Shown here: positions 19,239 to 29,999 of the stretch, in pieces
Layout: each line of letters opens with the position of its first letter
Position numbering within the stretch: the first letter of the stretch is position 1
Source: Desulfarculus sp.
Lineage (GTDB): Bacteria > Desulfobacterota > Desulfarculia > Desulfarculales > Desulfarculaceae
Assembly (NCBI GenBank): GCA_003605055.1
Contig: QZKP01000036.1
Location: forward strand, 1-49,025
Reading direction: 5' to 3'
Length of the DNA: 49,025 bases
Program-made: the position numbers and the translations under genes
Notes under the pieces: generated by a model
Seen by the model: the letters and a program-made list of their open reading frames with translations, nothing else
What the model was told of the DNA's origin: nothing
Database searches by the model: none

Positions 19239-19901
19239 CTACAGGACTGCCTGCGCCGGTTCGCTGGCGCCCACCTGCTCTCTCAGAACCGCTAGCAGTT
19301 CACGGGTGGCGCGGGCCAGGGCCTGGTAAAAGGCGGTGCCGGCCTGCAGCTCCATTTGTTCGCTGAATTGATCCACCCATTGGCCTAAGTGCTGCTCTAA
19401 GAACCGCCGCTGCCTTTGCTGGTAATAAAGAGCCTGCCGGGCATCCCCCTGTTGGCGGGCGGCCACCTCCCGGCAGGCTAAAAAGTGGAGCAGCTCCAAC
19501 TCCACGGCAATGTGGTCCGGCGCCTCGTGGAAGTCCTCGGCCAGATCCAGCCCCTCTTCGGCCAGCCAGGCCCGCACCTGCATGGTGCTCTCGCCCATCA
19601 CCCGGCGCTCATCTTCCAGGTAGACCGAGCCATAGGGCGGAGCCAGCAGGCTGAAAGGGCCCACGAACAGGCGGGCGTAATCCACCTGCAGCGCATTGCC
19701 GCCGCGGGGCCCCCGCAGGCCCTCCAAGCCCAGGGCCATGGGGGCCGCGGCCTGGGGGCAAAGCTCGCTCAGCAGGCTGTAAAGCTCCGACGCCCGGTCC
19801 CCCAGCTCGGCGCTGGGCGGATAGTAGCAGTCGGCCAGCAGGCGCAGGGCCCCGGCCATTTTTTCCAGAGCGGCTCCGGTCAGCTCATGCATGGTCCTCA
19901 T
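19239..19901 (-). CDS. arrD: TorD-family chaperone of the arsenate-reductase-like complex (ArrD-like)
   Basis: 220 residues, TorD/DmsD-type cytosolic chaperone. The family marks are 'DYARLFVGPFSLLAPPYGSVY' (Y-x-x-L-F-x-G-P...P-Y-x-S) near residues 74-94 and 'APDHIAVELELLHFL' near 126-140. Such proteins bind the Tat signal and apo-form of the molybdoenzyme until cofactor is loaded, which suits the Tat-dependent catalytic subunit three genes upstream. AGGAGG lies 5 bases before ATG 19901. It is the last gene of the operon, 9 bases after the membrane subunit. The order A-B-C-D is the same as in known arrABCD clusters. Confidence 0.85.
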   Translation of the reverse strand: MRTMHELTGAALEKMAGALRLLADCYYPPSAELGDRASELYSLLSELCPQAAAPMALGLEGLRGPRGGNALQVDYARLFVGPFSLLAPPYGSVYLEDERRVMGESTMQVRAWLAEEGLDLAEDFHEAPDHIAVELELLHFLACREVAARQQGDARQALYYQQRQRRFLEQHLGQWVDQFSEQMELQAGTAFYQALARATRELLAVLREQVGASEPAQAVL

Positions 19902-19910
19902 GCAATCCTC

Positions 19911-21005
19911 CTAGCTGGTCTGAGGTTCCAGCCGCAGGTAGCGTTCGGCCAGGGTGGCCACCAAAAGCAGCACCGCCAAGGACAGCACCAGCACCAGATA
20001 CTCCCAGAGGCTGGGGGTGTAGCTGAGAACCGCTGGCATCCCCTCGGCCTTGGGTCCCATGGGACGCACCTGGCCGGCCAGGATCACCGACATGTGCAGG
20101 GCGAAGATGCTGCCCAGGGTCACGACGCCGGCCACCACCTGACCCCAGCGGGCGGCGCGCAACGAAGGCACCAGCATCATAAGGAAAGGCGCCAGCAGGA
20201 TCAGGGCCAGGCTGAAGTTGGCGTCGGTGGCGAACTCCGGCAAAGAAGTGCCGGCGCGGTAGACCGCCCACAGCAGGTAGAACAAAAGAGTGATGAAAAG
20301 GCTGAAGACCAGCTTCTTGCCGGCATCGGCCGTCTGCTCCTGCGCGACTCCTTGCCCGCTCTGGCCGCGCAGCAGGTGCACCACCGCGCTGTAGAGCAGG
20401 AAGGCGGCCAGGCCGCTGACCACGGCGATGACCAGGCTCAGGATGGGCAGGAAGGAGCCGAAGAAGGTCGGCCGGGCCTCGGTGATGCCGAACACCGAGC
20501 CCAGGACCAGGGGCCCGAACAGGGCAGTGACAAAGGAGCCCAGCCCGGCCAGCTTGCTCAGCCAGCTGTCAAGATCGCCCGCCATCATGCGCCAGAACTT
20601 CACCAGCAGGCAGACCAGCTCGGCGCTGTAGATGAAGCCCATGATCTGGATGGGCGAGGCGAAGTTGGGCGAGAGGAAGATATAGAGGATGTGGTTGAGC
20701 GAACCCAGCTCCAGGCCGATGGAGATAAAGGCGGCTAGCAAGGTGGCGATGCCCAGCATCACAATACGCTTGGCCGCGCTCTGGTAAAGCTTGTCCCCAA
20801 AGAGCAGGGGCAGGGCCGACAGCAGGCCCAGGCCCGAGCTGGTGAGGGCGAAGAAAACGTAGGCGCCGATGGGCAGGGTCCAGATCACCACGTCGTTGGC
20901 GTTGAAGATCTCGTGACCCTCGGTGAAAAGCCTGAAGGCGGTGAAGAGCCCGGCGAGAATGGCCGCGCCGAGCAGCCCCAGCCATGCTATGTATCTCGCT
21001 TTCAT
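19911..21005 (-). CDS. arrC: NrfD/PsrC-family membrane subunit (ArrC-like quinol anchor)
   Basis: 364 residues, almost all in hydrophobic helices (about nine to ten). It opens 'YIAWLGLLGAAILAGLFTAF' and has the NrfD-type loop 'NANDVVIWTLPIGAYVFFAL'. It is a cofactor-free polytopic subunit that oxidises menaquinol and passes electrons to the iron-sulfur subunit. Its ATG begins directly after the ferredoxin subunit's stop (stop ends 21006, start 21005), which points to coupled translation. ArrC of this type is found in arr operons of Gram-positives and Deltaproteobacteria, whereas Shewanella uses CymA instead. It could equally serve a polysulfide-type reductase; assignment follows the catalytic subunit. 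Confidence 0.85.
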   Translation of the reverse strand: MKARYIAWLGLLGAAILAGLFTAFRLFTEGHEIFNANDVVIWTLPIGAYVFFALTSSGLGLLSALPLLFGDKLYQSAAKRIVMLGIATLLAAFISIGLELGSLNHILYIFLSPNFASPIQIMGFIYSAELVCLLVKFWRMMAGDLDSWLSKLAGLGSFVTALFGPLVLGSVFGITEARPTFFGSFLPILSLVIAVVSGLAAFLLYSAVVHLLRGQSGQGVAQEQTADAGKKLVFSLFITLLFYLLWAVYRAGTSLPEFATDANFSLALILLAPFLMMLVPSLRAARWGQVVAGVVTLGSIFALHMSVILAGQVRPMGPKAEGMPAVLSYTPSLWEYLVLVLSLAVLLLVATLAERYLRLEPQTS

Positions 21006-21731
21006 TTACGCTGCTCCCTTGGTGGACCCGTAGCGGGCGGAGTTGAAGCCGCGGATGTAGAACACGTGCGGCTCGGTGCCGATGTTCTCCCGCAGCCGGA
21101 ATGGACGGTACTTGCCCAGGAGCCGGCTCACCTCGCTGTTGGGGTTTTGGATGTCACCGAAGATGCGCGCGTTGGCCGGGCAGGCCTCCACGCAGTAGGG
21201 CAGATCCCCTTTCTTCACGCGGTGGTCGCAGAAGGTGCACTTCTCCACCACCCCCTTGGGGCGGATGGCGGCGTAGGTCTCGGCCCGGGCCGGGTTGTAG
21301 TAAGGGGTGCCCTTGCCGTCCACCGCCTTGACCTCTGCGGCCGGCGAGGAGGTGCAGCCCTTGATCAGCTCCTGCTCCTCGCGCCAGAACTTGTGCGGCT
21401 TGCCCCAGTTGAAGTAGATGACCCCGTAGGGGCAGTTGAACATGCAGTACTTGCAGCCGATGCACTTGTCGGGGTCGTGCATGGTGATGCCGTTGGGCAG
21501 CTTGTGCATGGCTCGGGTGGGGCAGCCCCGCACGCAGGGCGCGTTCTGGCAGTGGTTGCACAGGGTGGGGATGTAATGGTAGCGCACGTTGGGGAAGGTG
21601 CCCGCGGTCTCGGTGATCTTGTTGGACCAGTAGACGCCCTCGGACACGTTGTTCTCGTTGCGGCAGGCGATGGAGCAAGCGCCGCAGCCCACGCACCTCT
21701 GCAGGTCGATAACCATGGCGTACCGGGGCAT
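21006..21731 (-). CDS. arrB: Four-cluster 4Fe-4S electron-transfer subunit (ArrB-like)
   Basis: 241 residues with four ferredoxin-type cysteine groups: CVGCGACSIAC, CNHCQNAPCVRGC, CIGCKYCMFNC and CTFC...CVEAC. They bind four 4Fe-4S clusters in the DmsB/PsrB/ArrB fold. It links the quinol-oxidising membrane subunit to the molybdenum subunit. It has no Tat signal of its own, as is usual for subunits exported with the catalytic partner. The start overlaps the catalytic subunit's stop (TAATG), so expression is coupled. The length is close to known ArrB (about 230-240). Confidence 0.9.
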   Translation of the reverse strand: MPRYAMVIDLQRCVGCGACSIACRNENNVSEGVYWSNKITETAGTFPNVRYHYIPTLCNHCQNAPCVRGCPTRAMHKLPNGITMHDPDKCIGCKYCMFNCPYGVIYFNWGKPHKFWREEQELIKGCTSSPAAEVKAVDGKGTPYYNPARAETYAAIRPKGVVEKCTFCDHRVKKGDLPYCVEACPANARIFGDIQNPNSEVSRLLGKYRPFRLRENIGTEPHVFYIRGFNSARYGSTKGAA

Positions 21732-24307
21732 TACTTGGCCTCCTTAACTTTCTCCACCCGCAGGCGGGTGAGTCCGTTGCGCGCCGAGCTGCCGCTGAAG
21801 CGGTCGTACTCGGCCGGGATCAGGTCGTTGTTGCTGCCGCCGCGCGGCACCTTGCCGAAGACCTTGGAGGCGATGCGCCCGTAGACCCAATGCCCCTGGC
21901 CGTAGCACTTGGCGATGGTGCCGGGGCGGGTGCCCTCCCAGAGCTTGGCCGTGCACTCCAGCCGGCCCACCGGCGACACCAGCCGGATGCGGTCTCCGTC
22001 CTTGAGGCCCAGCTTTTTGGCGTCGGCGGGGTTGATCTTGGCCACGTCGTCCCAGCGCACGTCGCCGGGGTCCACGTCCTTGAACTCGTGGTACCAGGTG
22101 CAGTTGGCCGAGCGCCCCTCGCGGTTAAGCCGGCTCTTGTGGTCCACGTGCACGAAGGGAAACTGCTTGGCGTCGCCCACCAGGTAGGGTTCCTCGTAGT
22201 GGGGCACGAAGGCCCTCTCCCCCCGGGCCTGGTATTTGCAAACCTCCAGCACCTTGTCCACGCTGACCTTGTGCTTGTCGGCGTGCTCGGTCAGGACCGC
22301 CTTGAGGGTTTCGCTGTAGAACTCGAACTTCTTGGTCTTGGTCTTCATGTGGCCCCAGGACTTGCGGTAGGCGTAGGGAGAGGAGTTCCAAACGCCGGCC
22401 TTGCGGAACTCCTCCCAGCCGGAGAACTTGTCCCCGCCCTTGTACTGCTTGGGGTCCCACAGCTCCTGGGTGGTGTGCTTCAGGCAGTAGAGGGCGAACT
22501 CTTTCTCGTTGCCCGGCGCCTTGCCGGTCTCGGGGTCCTTGATGGTCTTGAAGTAGTCCAGCAGGTTGCCGAACCCGCGCTGGGCCAGCTTCTCGGCGAT
22601 GAGCCAGGGTATCTCGGTCTCGTCGATCTTGGCCTGCCACATGGGCTTGATCACCGGCTGCATGATGGGCACGTGGCGGTAGCCGTTGCCGATGGACTTC
22701 ACATAACCCCACTTCTCGAAGAGATGGTGGGTGTCGGGCAGCACCAGGTCCGAGTACCAGGAGAACTCCGAGGCGTTGGTGGTGATGTGCACCACGAAGG
22801 GGATGGAGGCCAGGGCCCGCTCCCAGCGCTCGGGCTGGGGGGCCGAGAAGGAGAAGTTGTTCATGTAGCCGATGGCCATCTTGATCTCGTTGGGGTCCTT
22901 TTTTAGGATGCCGTCGGCCGCGTAGTTGGTGACCACCCCGCCGCCCGGCTTCTTGTTCAGGGCCGGGAACTCCAGGGTGCCGCGGTGGTCGATCTTTTTG
23001 TGCTTCTTGCCCGCCTTGGCCACCTCGTCCAGGAAGGGCTTCTCGTCCGGGAATTTGATGGTGAAGGCCTTGTTGGAGCCCAGGGGGCCGCCCAGGTTGT
23101 CCACCGCGCCCACCAGGCCGTTGAGGGCGTGGCAGATCATGCTGGTGTAGGCGCCTCGGGTCTGCATGCAGTTGCCCGGGCCCACCCAGGACAAGCAGTG
23201 CGGCGCCGCCTGGCCGAACTCCAGGGCCACCCGCTGGATCTGCTCGGCGGGCACGCCCGCCCGCGGCGCCGCCCAAGCCGGGGTCTTGTCCTTGAGCTCC
23301 AGGTTCCACCACTTGACTAGGCCGTGGGTGAATTTCTCCTGGAAATCCTCCTCCTGTACCTCCTGGCCGGTTTTGAACCGGTTGACCCCGTCCTTGAAGT
23401 CGCCCACGAACTCCCTGTGCCACAGCCCGCGGGTCAGGATCACGTGCGCCATGGCCGCGGCGATGGCGCCGTCCTGGCCCGGGCTCACCGGCAGCCACTC
23501 GTCGGCCTTGGTGGCGGTGATGGACAGCCGGGGGTCCACCACCGCGATGGTGGCCCGGTCCATGACGTCGCCCCAGACGCTGCAGTAGTAGGAGACCTGC
23601 CGGTTGGAGGCCAGGGGATCGGCGCCCCAAAGCAGGACGTAGCGCGTGTTCTTTACGTCGTACTGGCGGTAGTCCCAGTAGCCCTGGGTGTAGTAGGGCC
23701 CGAACTTCTCGGCCTCGGCGCAGATGGCGCTGTGGGAGATGTTGTTGGGCGAGCCCAGGACCTTGGTCATCTTGTCGTAGAGGATGTCGCGCATGTAGGT
23801 ATAGCGGCCGCGCAAGAGCAGGTACTTGTGGATCTCGTTGTTCTTGCGCAGGGCCATGATCTGGTCGGCGATCATGTTCAAGGCCTCGTCCCAGGTGATG
23901 GGCACGAAGCGCGGATCCTGATCGCGTCCCTTTTTGGGGTTGCTGCGCTTCATGGGGGTCTTGATGCGGTCCGGATCGTAGACCTGCTGCAGGGCCAAGT
24001 GGACCCGGGGGCAGGCGGCCCGGCCGTTGACCTTGGAGCGGGCGTTGCCGCGCACCTTGACGGCACGTCCGTCCACTACCAGCACCTCCTGGGCGCACCA
24101 GGAGGTGCAGCCCTGGCAGGTGCTGGCTATCCACTGGCCGGCTGACTTGGCTTTGGTTTTGGTGGCGGCGGCCAGGGCCCGCAAGCTGGGCTGCAGCGGC
24201 GGGCTCAGGGCCGCGGCGGCGCAGGTGGCCGCGGAGGCCTTCAAGAAGCCCCGCCGCGACATGCCGGCCCGTTTCATCACGTTTTCCTTGTGCTTTGCTT
24301 CGGACAT
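21731..24307 (-). CDS. arrA: Molybdopterin catalytic subunit, ArrA-like arsenate respiratory reductase
   Basis: 858 residues. The Tat signal has SRRGFLK at 18-24. The N-terminal 4Fe-4S site is Cys64, 67, 71 and 99. The Mo ligand is Cys196 in 'ISHSAICAEAEKFGPYY'. Residues 166-169 read RGRY, the motif that separates ArrA from arsenite oxidase-type ArxA (GRGWG). Arg168, His192, Cys196, Lys201 and Tyr213 lie at exactly +3 from Arg165, His189, Cys193, Lys198 and Tyr210 of Shewanella ArrA, the arsenate/phosphate pocket as I recall it. 'RFVPITW' and 'ELKDKTP' blocks are also ArrA-like. Expected role: periplasmic reduction of arsenate to arsenite in anaerobic respiration. AGGAGG precedes the ATG. A polysulfide/thiosulfate reductase is the main alternative. 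Confidence 0.8.
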   Translation of the reverse strand: MSEAKHKENVMKRAGMSRRGFLKASAATCAAAALSPPLQPSLRALAAATKTKAKSAGQWIASTCQGCTSWCAQEVLVVDGRAVKVRGNARSKVNGRAACPRVHLALQQVYDPDRIKTPMKRSNPKKGRDQDPRFVPITWDEALNMIADQIMALRKNNEIHKYLLLRGRYTYMRDILYDKMTKVLGSPNNISHSAICAEAEKFGPYYTQGYWDYRQYDVKNTRYVLLWGADPLASNRQVSYYCSVWGDVMDRATIAVVDPRLSITATKADEWLPVSPGQDGAIAAAMAHVILTRGLWHREFVGDFKDGVNRFKTGQEVQEEDFQEKFTHGLVKWWNLELKDKTPAWAAPRAGVPAEQIQRVALEFGQAAPHCLSWVGPGNCMQTRGAYTSMICHALNGLVGAVDNLGGPLGSNKAFTIKFPDEKPFLDEVAKAGKKHKKIDHRGTLEFPALNKKPGGGVVTNYAADGILKKDPNEIKMAIGYMNNFSFSAPQPERWERALASIPFVVHITTNASEFSWYSDLVLPDTHHLFEKWGYVKSIGNGYRHVPIMQPVIKPMWQAKIDETEIPWLIAEKLAQRGFGNLLDYFKTIKDPETGKAPGNEKEFALYCLKHTTQELWDPKQYKGGDKFSGWEEFRKAGVWNSSPYAYRKSWGHMKTKTKKFEFYSETLKAVLTEHADKHKVSVDKVLEVCKYQARGERAFVPHYEEPYLVGDAKQFPFVHVDHKSRLNREGRSANCTWYHEFKDVDPGDVRWDDVAKINPADAKKLGLKDGDRIRLVSPVGRLECTAKLWEGTRPGTIAKCYGQGHWVYGRIASKVFGKVPRGGSNNDLIPAEYDRFSGSSARNGLTRLRVEKVKEAK

Positions 24308-24326: not shown

Positions 24327-24722
24327 TCACGAATTGGCGAAGTCGTTATCTGCCTTGGGGGTGGATTTGCCCGCCCGGTTGGCGCTGCGCAGCCAAAAGA
24401 GCAGCTCCTCGGGGTCAATGGGCTTGCCGAGCATAGCGAACACGTGCCGCTGCAGGGCCTGGCTCAGGTGCGGGTGAAAGGGCTGGTCCGAGGCGGTCAG
24501 CACGACTAGCCGTGGGTGGCGCCGCTTCAGTTCGTCCAGGCTCCTCCCAGAGGTGGCCACCGTGTCCAGGTCGATGAGCAGCACACCCTCGGCTGGAACC
24601 TGGCCCAACAGATCATCCCATGCGGTCAGATGACAAGCGGCGTAGCCCTGTTCACTGATATAGCCGCCTATCCTGGCCGCTTGGTCCGAATCGCCGCCCA
24701 ATATAAGAAGCACATTGGCCAT
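24327..24722 (-). CDS. Stand-alone CheY-like receiver protein, first gene of the arr operon
   Basis: About 131 residues, one response-regulator receiver fold and no output domain. Visible marks are an acidic patch near the first strand (Asp11, Asp13), the phosphoacceptor candidate Asp51 in 'LLIDLDT', a Thr/Ser in 'VVLTASD', and the invariant Lys-Pro in 'MLGKPIDPEEL'. It can therefore probably be phosphorylated. The start at 24722 is preferred because it lies about 40 bases after the predicted sigma-54 transcription start; upstream in-frame codons would overlap the promoter. It ends 19 bases before arrA. No complete histidine kinase is encoded in the window, so its phosphate donor is unknown. 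Confidence 0.7.
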   Translation of the reverse strand: MANVLLILGGDSDQAARIGGYISEQGYAACHLTAWDDLLGQVPAEGVLLIDLDTVATSGRSLDELKRRHPRLVVLTASDQPFHPHLSQALQRHVFAMLGKPIDPEELLFWLRSANRAGKSTPKADNDFANS

Positions 24723-24771: not shown

Positions 24772-24788
24772 GGCAATACTCGTACCAA
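24772..24788 (-). promoter_or_regulatory. Sigma-54 (-24/-12) promoter of the receiver-arrABCD operon
   Basis: On the minus strand TTGGTACGAGTATTGCC keeps the invariant GG and GC exactly 10 bases apart and differs from the TTGGCACG-N4-TTGC consensus by a single T for C. Transcription would start near 24761, about 40 bases before the receiver ATG. A sigma-54 activator gene lies immediately upstream. Confidence 0.75.
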
Positions 24789-24916: not shown

Positions 24917-25065
24917 GCCAGCGGCGGCCACGATTGCCAACCAATTGTGTTCAATTTTGTTACACAATAAAACTAACACTATTTTTATATTAAAATTAAA
25001 TAAGTTACCTATGTAAACTTTTGGGTCATGTGAAATTGTGCGTTCATTATTTGGCACTGCCAGGC

Positions 25066-27261
25066 TCAGTGTCGGAGAGGCTCCTGCAGGCCATATTTGC
25101 GCATCTTGCGGTAGAGGGTGGTCCGGCTGATGCCTAGACTCTGGGCCGCGGCCTTCTTGTTCCAGCCGCTTTGCTCCAGGGCCTGGGCCAGAATCTGTTT
25201 CTCGTACTGGTTCATGGGCTTGGTGGAAGGAGGCACGCTGCTGCCCAAAGCCGGGGGCAGGTCCGACACCTCGACCAGGGCGCCCCGGGCCAGGACCACT
25301 GACCTCTCCACCACGTTCTCCAGCTCACGCACGTTGCCGGGCCAGTGGTACTCAAGCAACTGGCGCATGGCCGCCGGGCTGAACTCCGCCGCCTGCCTGC
25401 TCTGCTCTTGGGCGAAGCGGGTCAAGAAGTGGCGGGCCAGGCGGGGGATGTCGTTGCGGCGCTCCCGCAGGGGGGGCAGTTCCAGGGGAAAGACATGCAG
25501 GCGGTAGTAGAGGTCCTCCCGGAAGCGGCCCGCCTTGACCTCGGCCAGGAGGTCCTTGTTGGTGGCCGCCAGGATGCGCACGTCCAGATCCAGGGTCTTC
25601 TCCCCGCCCAGCCGCTCGAACTGGTGGGTCTGCAGCACCCGCAGCAGCTTGATCTGGGCGGACATGGGTATCTCGCCCACCTCGTCCAGGAAAACCGTGC
25701 CCCCCTGGGCCTGCTCGAAACGTCCCGCCTTCTGCCGCGTGGCCCCGGTGAAGGCGCCCTTCTCGTGCCCGAACAGCTCGCTCTCCAAGAGGGTGGCCGG
25801 ATAAGCGGCGCAGTCAATGACCACGAAAGGGTGCCCCCGGCGGTGGCTGCTCTCATGGATGGCCTTGGCCACCAGCTCCTTGCCCGTGCCGCTCTCGCCC
25901 AGGATGAGCACCGTGGAGTCGGTGGGGGCCACGTCCTTGATCAGCTTGTACACGCTCTGCATCCTGGGGTCCTTGCCCACCAGGCCACGGTAGCCCTCCT
26001 CCTTTTCCACCCGGCCGGCCAGGGCCTGCATTTCCTCGTCATGGCGAAGGGCGCGCAGCAGACTCCCGCTGGCCTGCTCGACTATCAACTGAGCCACGTC
26101 CAGCTCGCAGGGTTCGCAGGGCGCATCGGCCCGGCAGGCCACCACCAGGGCCCCGAAGGTTTCGCCCTCACCCCTGAGAGGAATCAAGGATATTTTGGGG
26201 GCTTGGGCCATGGCCGGCGTCAGCAGCGCCGGCGGAATCTGGCGCTGGCTTATGGCCTGCCTGGCTTCCAGCCGGGGCAGCAATCCGGCCACTCGGCCCG
26301 TTTCCGCTTGTCCCTCCAGCAGGTGCAGGCCGCGGCCGTCAAAGGCGTAGAGGCAGCGCCCGCCGCCGCCCAGGGCCACCAGCATGATCTCCCGGCAGAC
26401 CAGCATGGCGCTAAGCCTAGCCTGTAGCAGGCCGCCGATCTGGCCGGGGGTGGCCAGGGCCCCCACCTCCTGCATGATGCGGCAGGAGGTCTGGGTCTGC
26501 TGCTGGGCCCGCTCCAGGTCGGTGGTGCGGCGCTCCAACTGGCCGGTGTAGTGGCTCACTTGGTCCGCCATCTGGTTGAAGGAGCGGGACAGGGACTGCA
26601 CCTCGCGCGGTCCGCCCTTATCGTCCACGCGGACGCTGCGGTCCCCCTGGCTCATGCTCTGCACGGCCTGGGTGAGCCGCTCCAGGGGCCGCACCAGATG
26701 GCGGGCGAACAGCAGGCAGATGCCCAGAGCGACCCCCAGCACGGCCAGGGTCAAGAGCGAGATATTCAGCCACAGCTCGCCCATCTTGTCCCGGTAGGGC
26801 TTCTCGTCGAGGCTCATGCGCAGGTAGCCGGCCCGCCCCTCGAGTATGGGCCAGACCACGTCCAGGTAGCGCTGCCCGCTGGTGGCGGCGATGCGGCTGA
26901 TTCTCTGGGGGCCGGGCCCGCGGCCAGCGATGCCCTCCAGCAGGCCCCGGGGCACCCCCTCCTTGAAGGTGTGGCCCAACACGCGTCCGTCGCGCACCAC
27001 CAGCAGATAGCCGATGCTGGGGTCGCTCTGCAGACGGTGCTCCAACATGCGCTGGATGCCCACTAGGTCGTTGATCAGGACCTTTTCCGTGGCCTGCAGG
27101 GCCAGGGACTGGGCGGCGGTGAGCAGGTGGCTGTTCATGTTGGCCTGCAGGCTCTTGTCGTAGTAATGGGCCACCAGCCAGGCCACGGTGAGTCCGCTGG
27201 CCAGCACCAGGGCCGCCACCGCCAAAATAACGCGGTATTTCAAGGTGCGGGGAAAAAGCAT
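25066..27261 (-). CDS. Membrane-anchored sigma-54 activator with periplasmic sensor, HAMP and GAF domains
   Basis: 731 residues. TM1 ~11-31; periplasmic sensor ~32-163; TM2 ~165-187; HAMP ~188-240; coiled coil ~240-262; GAF-like domain ~265-405 with several Cys, including a CEPC pair at 382-385; AAA+ ~425-660 with Walker [15 protein letters not shown] sigma-54 contact loop (502-507), Walker [11 protein letters not shown] and arginine-finger region; Fis-type HTH ~685-725. There is no receiver or histidine-kinase domain. It thus joins membrane sensing directly to sigma-54 activation. ATG 27261 lies next to the stop of the binding-protein gene. Its target is probably the sigma-54 promoter just downstream. 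Sensor-fused membrane activators of this type are uncommon; most use a separate kinase. Confidence 0.9.
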
Positions 27262-27262
27262 C

Positions 27263-28213
27263 TCAGCCCCCGCCGGCCTGCTTGGCCAGAATGCGCCGCA
27301 CCGGCTGGTACCACTCATCCCGGGCCTGGACGAAGCGTTCGATCCTCAGTTCGGCCAGGATGGCCCGGCCCTGGGGGTTTTGGTGCATGGACAGCAGCGC
27401 CTCCTGCACCGCTTGGCGCGACTCGGGGGATAAGTGGCGCGAGGCCACCACGGGCGGGATGCCGAAGGCCTGCGACTTGCGAATGATCCTGGTGCGCGAG
27501 GTAAGCTGCGGCTCCGTGGCCTGGTAATAATCCCACACCAGCCCGTCCACCGTAGCCCCGTCAACCAGCCCCTTGGCCACGGCCAGGATGGAGTTGTCGT
27601 GGGCTTGGGTGTAAACGACCTCGCTGAAAAACTCCTCCGGGCGCCGGTTCTTCTCTGCCAGCCAATACGTGGGCACCAGGCGCCCGGTGTTGGAGTCCGG
27701 GTCGGTGAAGGCGAAGATCCTCCCCTGCAAATCCTCCAGGGAGCGATACGCGCTGGCAGCGTTGACGATCAAGTAGGCGCGGTAAAATGTCTCGCCCTGT
27801 ACCTGCGGCGCGGCCAACAGGTGCAGGCCCAGCCTGCGGCCACCGGCCGCAAAGGGCCCTGAGCAGATGAAGGCCACGTCTATCTCGCCGGTGTCCAGCA
27901 GATGATTTATCTCGGCGTAGGTCTTTTTCTGCACCAGATCCACCGGCCGGCCCACCTTTTGGCCCAGGTAGGCCAGGATCTGCTGATAGTAGATCATGGT
28001 GGCCCGGGGGGAGATCATGGAACCCACGGCCACCCGCAGGACGGCGCCGTCGCCGGAGGTGTCGGGCCGGGGGACGGGCTTGGTGTTCTTGAAGTCCACC
28101 GTGGTATAGGCCGGGTCTGAGCCACAGCCCGCCGCGGCCAGCAGGGTCAGCAGAAGGGCCAACCATCCCCCAGCCAAGCGCCTTTTAACCACTTTGGCCG
28201 CAGCTGAGGACAC
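27263..28213 (-). CDS. PhnD/AioX-like periplasmic oxyanion-binding lipoprotein
   Basis: 316 residues from GTG with AAAGGAG 5 bases upstream. Lipoprotein signal: 'LALLLTLLAAAGC', lipid Cys30. The rest is a type 2 periplasmic-binding fold of the phosphate/phosphonate (PhnD) group, with 'LRVAVGSMISP', 'EIDVAFICSGPF' and 'FTDPDSNTGRLVP' segments. No permease or ATPase genes are nearby, so sensing rather than uptake is likely. The known relative AioX binds arsenite and signals through a kinase. The only other Cys, Cys117, lies in the ligand loop (FICSGP), which fits an arsenic ligand by analogy. The activator gene follows directly, so the pair is inferred to be a sensor unit. Confidence 0.85.
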   Translation of the reverse strand: MSSAAAKVVKRRLAGGWLALLLTLLAAAGCGSDPAYTTVDFKNTKPVPRPDTSGDGAVLRVAVGSMISPRATMIYYQQILAYLGQKVGRPVDLVQKKTYAEINHLLDTGEIDVAFICSGPFAAGGRRLGLHLLAAPQVQGETFYRAYLIVNAASAYRSLEDLQGRIFAFTDPDSNTGRLVPTYWLAEKNRRPEEFFSEVVYTQAHDNSILAVAKGLVDGATVDGLVWDYYQATEPQLTSRTRIIRKSQAFGIPPVVASRHLSPESRQAVQEALLSMHQNPQGRAILAELRIERFVQARDEWYQPVRRILAKQAGGG

Positions 28214-28562: not shown

Positions 28563-28961
28563 CGGGTCTGGGATATTACGAGGCTGGACTCCAAAACAGT
28601 ATGGGGAGACCCCATCCGGCTGGAGCAGGTGTTCATGAACCTGGTGCTCAACGCGCGTGACGCGCTCACGGATATGATGGAGCGCGACCCCAAGGGCCGC
28701 AAAGGGGTAATTTCGGTCAGCTCCTGCCTGGAGAAAGGCCTGGTGACCGTGCGGGTGCAGGACAACGGGCCCGGAATTCCGGAACACGCTCGGCAAAAGG
28801 TGTTTCAGCCTTTCTTCACCACCAAACCAGTGGGAAAGGGGACCGGGTTAGGCCTTTCCATAAGCTACGGCATCGTGCGAGAGTATGGGGGAAGCATCTC
28901 CCTGGACTGCCCCGCCGAGGGCGGGGCGGTTTTCAACATAACCTTTCCGCCGGCGAAGTGA
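28563..28961 (+). pseudogene. C-terminal fragment of a sensor histidine kinase (HATPase domain only)
   Basis: Coding character begins near 28575 ('VWGDPIRLEQ') and runs through N box 'VFMNLVLNARDAL', G1 'VQDNGPGIP', F box 'FQPFFTTKPVG' and G2 'GTGLGLSISYGIVREYGG' to the stop at 28961. The dimerisation domain, the phosphorylated His and any sensor part are absent upstream; the 300 bases before show no frame for them. A GTG at 28629 could start a short protein, but it would begin inside the ATPase fold. It is best read as the remnant of a two-component kinase beside the arr sensory genes. Confidence 0.75.
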
Positions 28962-29999
28962 CTATGAGCCATGCCCCTGCCCGGTGCGCTCCCAGTCTCG
29001 TTTGACCAGGACCAGGATTTTTTGTGCCCGCTCAAATTCCAGCTTGATCCCCTCCCAATGCGGCCGATGGGTTGTTTTCTGCATCATCATGCCGTCGGCG
29101 TCGAACCAGCGGGGCAAAAGGCCTCCGAAGAAGTATCCCCGTGCCCGCAGCTCCTCCGCCGCGGCGCCGACCCAGGGGCAGCCCAGGGGCAGCCAGACCT
29201 GAAACACCTCCGCGCCCTGGGCCAGGCCCTCCTGTTCCTTGGCCTCCAGGGCGGCGGCGAAATCAACTCCGATCTCCCAGGCGGCCAGACGGACCAATTG
29301 GGCGAAGGGGAAAAAGTGAGCCTCCAGGCGGCTGACGCGCTCCGCGGGCGGGCCGCCCTGCGCGGGTCGCAGCTCGCGCTGTTCGTCCAGGCCGGCGTAA
29401 AGCCAGGTTAGCGCCTCCTGATAGGAGCCGGGCAGGTAAACCGCATGCGGCTTGGACCTCACAATGATGAAATCCAAAAGGGCCGCCACCCGGCCCTCGG
29501 CGCTTTTTTCACGGGCATAAGCCGCCGCGGGCATTAGGTCCACCTCCAGGGTAAGGCTCACCGTGCCCAGGGTGCGGGTCATTTTTTGGGAGTAGACATG
29601 ATTGCAAACCGGCTCTCCGAAAACCATCTCCACCCCAAAGCGCGGCGCCGCCACCTCTATGCCGTGCCGGCACATGCGGGAGAAAATATTTCCCTGGCGG
29701 TAGCTGGGCAAAACGACCCCGGCGCCAGATTCGTAGACCTTGGGACTGGGGGCTGAGTTGAAGATGGCATTGTGCCCCACAATGTCGCCCCGGGTGGTGC
29801 GGGCCACGCTGCTGACGATGGTCCCTTGCTGGTTGGCCTCCACCAGCGCAGCGGGCTCCAGGTAGGTCCGTATGGGATAGCCCTGGCCGTAAACGGATTG
29901 GAACAGGGCCGCCACTCCGGGGGCGTCCGCCGGCCGCATTAAGTCCACCGCGAACTCCAGCCCCGGTTCAATCTCCTCAGTGCGCACCTCAGGCCTCAT
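28962..29999 (-). CDS. GNAT-like N-acetyltransferase family protein
   Basis: 345 residues. The N-terminal half resembles the GNAT fold ('LMRPADAPGVAALFQSVYG', 'GHNAIFN', and an acyl-CoA-like loop in 'GAGVVLPSYRQGNIFSRM'); the C-terminal half may be a second, degenerate copy ('WVGAAAEELRARGYFFGGLLP'). An acyl transfer to an amine is expected; substrates are unknown. The ATG overlaps the stop of the MFS gene (ATGA), so translation is coupled. It is the last gene of a four-gene minus-strand operon with an aminotransferase, an exporter and another GNAT-like protein. Confidence 0.65.
   Translation of the reverse strand: MRPEVRTEEIEPGLEFAVDLMRPADAPGVAALFQSVYGQGYPIRTYLEPAALVEANQQGTIVSSVARTTRGDIVGHNAIFNSAPSPKVYESGAGVVLPSYRQGNIFSRMCRHGIEVAAPRFGVEMVFGEPVCNHVYSQKMTRTLGTVSLTLEVDLMPAAAYAREKSAEGRVAALLDFIIVRSKPHAVYLPGSYQEALTWLYAGLDEQRELRPAQGGPPAERVSRLEAHFFPFAQLVRLAAWEIGVDFAAALEAKEQEGLAQGAEVFQVWLPLGCPWVGAAAEELRARGYFFGGLLPRWFDADGMMMQKTTHRPHWEGIKLEFERAQKILVLVKRDWERTGQGHGS

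Follow-up and report, generated by a model that had tools for sequence, protein, structure and literature searches.

Can a periplasmic signal reach a σ54-dependent promoter without passing through a histidine kinase? Transmembrane signalling to such promoters is usually described in terms of a kinase and a response regulator. The question is posed by contig QZKP01000036.1 of Desulfarculus sp., a 49,025-bp stretch (the window) that forms a complete contig in a draft assembly of 3.6 Mb in 78 contigs (94% complete). On its minus strand, a lipoprotein of the solute-binding protein (SBP) type, a membrane-anchored σ54 activator and a receiver-like protein are encoded in this order, followed by ArrA-, ArrB-, NrfD- and TorD-type genes down to position 19239. 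As the preliminary description of this DNA had observed, the genes for the lipoprotein (27263..28213) and for a HAMP-bearing activator with two transmembrane (TM) segments (25066..27261) stand one base apart, the activator ATG lying at 27261 and the SBP stop one base away, in front of an arrABCD-like operon. We propose, with a probability of about 0.72, that the two proteins act as a switch across the membrane, activating the genes of a respiratory oxyanion reductase without a kinase; the ligand, the docking of the two partners and the direct activation are predicted parts of it.

The lipoprotein (316 aa; its start is uncertain, being GTG at 28213 or a later codon) carries the lipobox LAAAGC (Cys30), matches Pfam Phosphonate-bd (PF12974; 2e-65) and finds ArrX as its best match in the Protein Data Bank (PDB; 1e-70). 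In agreement with its earlier designation as AioX/PhnD-like, it is matched better by ArrX and by AioX than by PhnD, in sequence as well as in structural Z score. Cys117, previously placed in the presumed ligand loop, is indeed the only cysteine besides that of the lipobox; it aligns with the arsenite-binding Cys106 of AioX, and a cysteine occupies this position in all 84 aligned SBPs, a set that includes the window and one duplicate (locus L068, from the same contig as L024). The protein combines the class II periplasmic binding protein (PBP) fold with the pocket of AioX, for which Tyr88, Cys106, Tyr131, Ser161, Ser163, His192 and Asp210 are listed in the available text of PMC5908839, and the pocket residues are largely kept across the 84 sequences. 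Because loci were chosen with two peptide patterns, VQ[KR]KTYA[EQ] and [IVT]FAFTDPD, the conservation seen at Tyr99 and in the FAFTDPD stretch is in part a product of this selection; Cys117, Tyr144/147, His205 and Asp223 lie outside these patterns. Judged by its sequence, the lipoprotein is an ArrX/AioX-type sensor that would bind an oxyanion.

Its partner, of 731 aa, is laid out as TM segment, periplasmic sensor domain, TM segment, HAMP, GAF-like domain, AAA+ and Fis-type helix-turn-helix (HTH). Hydropathy peaks near residues 11 and 167, Pfam recognizes HAMP, Sigma54_activat and HTH_8, and the motifs GESGTGKE (455), GAFTGA (502) and FLDEVGEI (524) are intact, providing the Walker A, Walker B, GAFTGA and HTH elements of a bacterial enhancer-binding protein (EBP); a receiver domain was not found by Pfam (no Response_reg match). 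An AlphaFold2 model (pLDDT 84, pTM 0.40) shows secondary structure in the expected order, and all 50 Foldseek matches listed for the whole protein are chains of σ54 activators or of complexes thereof. The domain order first assigned to this protein therefore stands for its TM segments, HAMP, AAA+ and HTH, while the GAF domain, not recognized by Pfam in the window activator, is a predicted fold, hinted at by an α/β domain at about residues 272-405 and by two GAF-bearing kinase relatives (L102 and L105). Cysteines in this GAF-like domain are conserved among 53 activators (C289 in 47, C376 in 52, C380 in 45, C382 in 50); the window protein has C289, C376 and C382, with C385 in place of 380, and the activator of L025 lacks the CPxxCxC set. 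The C...CPxxCxC cluster is a possible metal, Fe-S or thiol redox site or input.

Pairing of the two genes recurs more often than expected by chance. In a first sample, comprising the best 80 loci of 113 confirmed relatives and counted by the gene directly downstream of the SBP gene, that gene encoded a membrane activator in 70 cases, a histidine kinase in seven and another protein in three. The 70 comprise 66 full activators, three cut by a contig end and one of which only the N-terminal part is present. The search for the same pair in other genomes, advised in the preliminary description, thus bore out the pairing. Among the loci are two from cultured bacteria, Desulfacinum infernum (L065) and Desulfoferrobacter suflitae (L079). 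A second sample covered 395 genomes of the phylum, 44 of which have the SBP; among 47 loci read besides the window, the partner was a membrane activator in 18 and a kinase in 22 (13 by ATPase motif, nine by Pfam), one carried a sensor relative (L149), and six had no partner that was found or lay on a cut contig. The phylum therefore holds both designs. The samples overlap, since at least eight of the 47 loci, all with a membrane activator, are also in the first; moreover, L034 and L062 come from one metagenome-assembled genome, and L085/L089, L065/L069 and L083/L087 are close relatives. Pairwise distances of the SBP correlate with those of the activator sensor (r = 0.83, 58 loci, shared vertical descent still included) more strongly than with those of ArrA (r = 0.68, 14 loci) or TtrA (r = 0.26, 16 loci).

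At the window locus itself, the suggestion that kinase and phosphorelay are bypassed is in keeping with the gene content. Where XSR-type systems have a cognate histidine kinase gene beside that of the PBP, the neighbour here is the σ54 activator, and nothing of a kinase is nearby except a 110-aa HATPase piece; where they have a separate response regulator with receiver and output domains, there is a receiver-like protein with no other domain match in Pfam. No complete kinase or receiver-type activator adjoins the pair.

The loci with a kinase partner point to where the activator may have come from. An alignment of the sensor-TM-HAMP part between 15 activators and nine proteins from other loci (eight kinases and the L097 protein) spans 231 columns (hhalign probability 100, E = 8e-47). 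L102 and L105 read sCache_3_2-HAMP-GAF-HisKA_3-HATPase by Pfam; in the kinase partners of L096 and L098, HAMP is absent by Pfam. Because these kinase relatives share the sensor-TM-HAMP module, the switch is best read as an ArrX/ArrS-type sensor whose kinase core seems to have given way to a σ54 output. On a tree of the first-sample SBPs with the window, L024 and L025 added and L027, L068 and L100 dropped beforehand, the seven kinase-linked SBPs together with L097 and L106 fall on one side of a branch with 99% SH-aLRT support. The partner label needs four changes on this tree, three rows being 'other'; the tree, which covers the kinase-linked loci of the first sample, is compatible with a single exchange of output.

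Variants of the family were seen as well. L136-L139 and L141 encode 570-618-aa proteins with SBP matches beside a kinase and a σ54 response regulator; an arr-like operon lies close by in L137-L139, and the L136 protein holds two PF12974 stretches by Pfam. In Desulfovibrio cuneatus (L059:9938-12821), an SBP of the same family, for which no activator was found, is convergent with a methyl-accepting chemotaxis protein and maybe serves chemotaxis to an oxyanion.

A predicted -24/-12 promoter, TTGGTACGAGTATTGCC (24772..24788, minus strand; score 21.0 of 23.5), lies between the activator and the stand-alone receiver-like protein of 131 aa (24327..24722), which is separated from the activator by 343 bp. 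The consensus and weights used for scoring are those we take to describe σ54 promoters. Upstream of the receiver-like gene, sites scoring at least 19.5 occur in 47 of 51 loci (48 of the 70 activator loci plus the window, L025 and L026) and on the opposite strand in four; two of these four (L077 and L084) are divergent, and there the SBP's own promoter also looks σ54-like. A general σ54 promoter in front of the SBP gene was rejected, as sites at score 17 were about as frequent in the forward (39/70) as in the reverse direction (38/70); sites scoring at least 21 precede this gene in L038, L077, L084, L086 and L092.

Upstream of the promoter, the palindrome TGTCC-N7-GGACA occurs in 10 of the 51 loci without mismatch, in 24 with at most one and in 40 with at most two (0.05, 0.1 and 3.65, respectively, in dinucleotide shuffles). 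In 25 loci, including the window, a distance of 63-67 bp separates the two best matrix sites, against a roughly estimated expectation of 1.8, a spacing as for cooperating activator dimers. The candidate operators in the window are a proximal site, TGTAACAAAATTGAACA (24948..24964, minus strand), located 176 bp upstream of the promoter match, and a distal, second-best matrix site, TGACCCAAAAGTTTACA (25012..25028, minus strand), at a spacing of 64 bp. Across the family, both promoter and operator are conserved, and the activator is predicted to bind the operator sites.

The promoter is followed on the minus strand, after the receiver-like gene, by genes for an ArrA-like molybdopterin catalytic subunit with a Tat signal (21731..24307; PDB ArrA 6cz7, 1140 bits), an ArrB-like iron-sulfur subunit (21006..21731), an NrfD-type, ArrC-like membrane subunit (19911..21005; Pfam NrfD 1.2e-11) and a TorD/ArrD-type maturation chaperone (19239..19901; Pfam Nitrate_red_del 5e-35). 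The pair had been said to directly precede a σ54-driven arr operon; promoter and arr-like operon are present, and the receiver-like gene, which had gone unmentioned, intervenes between activator and arrA. ArrA reaches 1288 bits against the NF041714 cut-off of 1600 and ArrB 332 bits against 450 for NF041715; the NF041714 cut-off was passed in none of 60 genomes searched, including the window's own. Seven residues of Shewanella ArrA that we take, with their numbering, to form its active site (Arg165, Tyr166, His189, Ser190, Cys193, Lys198, Tyr210) are identical in the window protein by alignment to 6cz7.

Elsewhere, the accompanying enzyme varies. A reductase catalytic subunit is in reach in 42 of the 70 activator loci of the first sample, being ArrA-like in 19, TtrA-like in 19 and PhsA-like or other in four. 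Of the 18 activator loci in the phylum sample, which overlaps the first, 15 have a TtrA-like and none an ArrA-like gene. The idea that the pair always sits beside arrABCD was accordingly dropped as a general rule: TtrA-like and PhsA-like reductases share the pair. Classes were assigned by score against two seeds, the window's ArrA and the TtrA-like protein of L024, and checked with NCBIfam for ten reductases besides the window's (two of the four Phs-like ones among them); with the TtrA cut-off at 1750 bits, the checked TtrA-like proteins reach 468-549. In L072 and L073, the pair is followed by genes that resemble multihaem cytochromes by eye, and a molybdenum subunit was not detected there; the switch may also serve cytochrome-based reductases.

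With the domain layout, the conserved pairing, the sensor module's homology with the sensors of kinases and the family promoter and operator found by computation, we infer the following course of events. Held at the membrane by its lipid, the lipoprotein would bind an oxyanion, in the window most likely arsenate or arsenite, in its ArrX/AioX-type pocket and, once loaded, dock on the periplasmic domain of the activator. From the second TM segment the signal would then travel via HAMP and the GAF-like domain into the AAA+ ring; bound at the tandem operator about 180-240 bp upstream, this ring would remodel σ54 polymerase at the promoter at 24772-24788 and so switch on rec-arrABCD, directly and without phosphorylation; any role of the receiver-like protein would come on top of this. 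In sulfate-reducer-type bacteria, the pair thus seems to be a direct switch for genes of arsenate reductase or of related respiration. What endures of the original interpretation is the conserved association of a membrane activator with an AioX/ArrX-type sensor, not an obligate arrABCD neighbourhood. Likewise, the activator is membrane-bound as described, and the term 'one-component design' is too loose, because binding protein and activator make up a two-protein system, perhaps joined by a third, receiver-like protein.

Several observations weigh against this model. Within the order, the SBP is present in only three of 21 genomes, counting that of the window, and in one of the three it is a fragment. 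No TGTCC-N7-GGACA with at most two mismatches lies upstream of the window's promoter; both of its candidate operators are weak, the proximal one having three mismatches and a leave-one-out matrix p of 0.04, and what backs the window's operator pair is solely this matrix and the 64-bp spacing. In L063, L076 and L091, the arr genes are on the opposite strand, misplaced for the pair's downstream promoter, and the differing reductases argue against a strictly arsenic-specific system. The promoter could also be the target of a kinase or receiver-type EBP encoded at another place in the genome, and phosphorylation may still enter, given the presence of the receiver-like gene.

The best surviving alternative is that the pair responds to respiratory oxyanions more broadly or to a different one (of sulfur or selenium, or the substrate of each neighbouring reductase), the window's arr operon being one target of several. 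TtrA- or PhsA-like genes accompany the pair in 23 of the 42 loci with a reductase in reach, and the eight changes of enzyme class required on the SBP tree by parsimony point the same way. Against this, no class is forced to change more than once by the well-supported branches, and the classes cluster on the tree, with as few changes in none of 200 shuffles. Moreover, no residue of the AioX pocket separates the enzyme classes in an alignment judged by eye: residue 176 is Thr or Ser within classes, and Asp223 is replaced only in four loci without an assigned reductase (L050, L072, L073 and L101). In addition, tetrathionate and thiosulfate are not bound by AioX, ArxX or ArrX in isothermal titration calorimetry, according to the available text of PMC5908839.

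Acr3 pumps also speak against a sensor for a different oxyanion, as they are found near TtrA- and PhsA-linked loci too. In 10 of the 70 activator loci (four Arr, one Ttr, one Phs-like and four without an assigned reductase), Acr3 is no more than about 10 kb away from the SBP, where about 0.15-0.3 such loci are expected at an assumed mean genome of 3.3 Mb; the test is post hoc, two of the ten matches being the seeds first spotted by eye, and Acr3 was called by similarity above 300 bits to these two seeds, the only ones checked with NCBIfam and both over its Acr3 cut-off. Among genomes listed with the membrane activator, Acr3 in G158, G161 and G197 is about 4, 10 and 7 kb, respectively, from a TtrA-linked SBP; in G105 and the window's own genome it is on another contig. 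An ArsR-type regulator and an Acr3 pump were seen just upstream of the sensor pair at L054:8186-9795 and L088:3790-5391. With 19 ArrA-like loci and these pumps, other genomes do have arsenic-related neighbours, the lack of which would have counted against the preliminary description. Given the ArrX-type pocket, the arr-like operons and the clustered Acr3 pumps, arsenic is the leading but unproven ligand, and a broader specificity is a real possibility that we would, on balance, bet against.

A second alternative retains the phosphorelay: an unlinked kinase would phosphorylate the receiver-like protein, which would gate the activator. The protein is widespread, and its receiver residues are well kept among the 51 aligned sequences (Asp73 in 50, Ser/Thr in 50, Pro106 in all 51 and Lys122 in 45, with a conserved HPEL stretch). 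Its Pfam Response_reg match in the window (8e-4) is under the gathering cut-off, and the N-terminal acidic pair is variable; in the window it reads Gly-Gly by eye. Of 37 loci with both the gene and a reductase, 34 have the gene upstream of the reductase and on its strand, and in seven of 48 activator loci the gene is on the strand opposite to the sensor genes, which indicates that its ties are to the regulated genes and not to those of the sensor. In five loci that have a reductase, the gene was not detected. Such stand-alone receiver-like proteins precede Arr-, Ttr- and Phs-like genes alike and look like a family of their own. Gating by a phosphorylated receiver is, in our view, improbable.

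Finally, a transport role of the lipoprotein, as a scavenging SBP that takes up phosphate or phosphonate and stands beside a regulator by accident, accords with its PF12974 membership and PhnD-like fold and is nonetheless very remote, as the conserved partner directly downstream is the activator and not an ABC transporter, ArrX and AioX outrank PhnD, and the genome has neither a PhnE permease over the cut-off (best 29.6 of 216.7 bits) nor a second strong PF12974 protein (221.6 bits for the window SBP, 31.2 for the next). As noted from the start, no ABC permease or ATPase is near, none being detected by Pfam among ten open reading frames (ORFs) scanned between 17170 and 29999, and a role in ABC transport was rejected on these grounds. 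Contig C17 of the genome has PF12974 and PhnE matches so weak (31.2 and 25.6 bits) that it presumably encodes some other transporter.

The kinase-free switch is most readily placed among known XSR-type systems. ArrX of Chrysiogenes arsenatis, part of ArrXSR, binds arsenate (PMC5908839, available text). The window sensor is closest to ArrX by sequence and its gene likewise adjoins an arr-type operon; where ArrXSR relies on a histidine kinase plus a regulator that is CitB/FixJ-like and lacks AAA+, the window has one membrane-bound σ54 activator for both. With AioXSR and ArxXSR it shares a PBP sensor with a pocket cysteine, a σ54 promoter and an AAA+ activator. The activator of those systems is an AtoC-type response regulator, AioR being phosphorylated by the kinase AioS, whereas that of the window has no receiver domain and two TM segments. 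One-component σ54 activators of Desulfovibrio vulgaris resemble it in that an attached sensory domain sets EBP activity and the target operon is often adjacent; GAF and PAS are their commonest sensing domains, and pairing with a binding protein is unmentioned in the available text of PMC4641369. No description of a PhnD/AioX-type protein paired with a membrane-bound σ54 activator was found among the titles and abstract openings listed from the Creative Commons-licensed PMC literature, subscription journals being mostly outside this scope. The pair would accordingly be a variant of already known XSR-type oxyanion sensing, the kinase-free σ54 output being its new part.

Upstream of the pair, on the plus strand, an ORF at 28629-28961 encodes the 110-aa HATPase_c fragment and abuts a convergent gene at 28962-29999. 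The ORF was rejected as a partner kinase: no HisKA-like stretch was seen by eye in the three forward frames upstream, and it is therefore taken for a relic of a 5'-truncated histidine kinase. The gene at 28962-29999 has no Pfam or NCBIfam match and, sought in eight genomes of the genus, was found in the window's own only.

A more far-reaching scheme would have the phosphorelay of an arsenic-sensing system replaced by a transmembrane σ54 activator whose AAA+ ring is driven by a ligand-bound PBP without a kinase, with a cytoplasmic redox input through the C...CPxxCxC cluster, operon feedback through the new receiver-like family and, by way of the invariant pocket cysteine, unrecognized arsenic oxyanion reductases among the controlled TtrA- and PhsA-like enzymes; that all of this holds jointly is doubtful. 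The kinase-free switch, as a widespread two-protein alternative that comes with its promoter and operator, offers a simple case of signalling from the periplasm to an AAA+ ring. The sensor pair is a possible biosensor part for arsenic, and it provides a handle on which molybdenum reductases of sulfate-reducer relatives act on arsenic.

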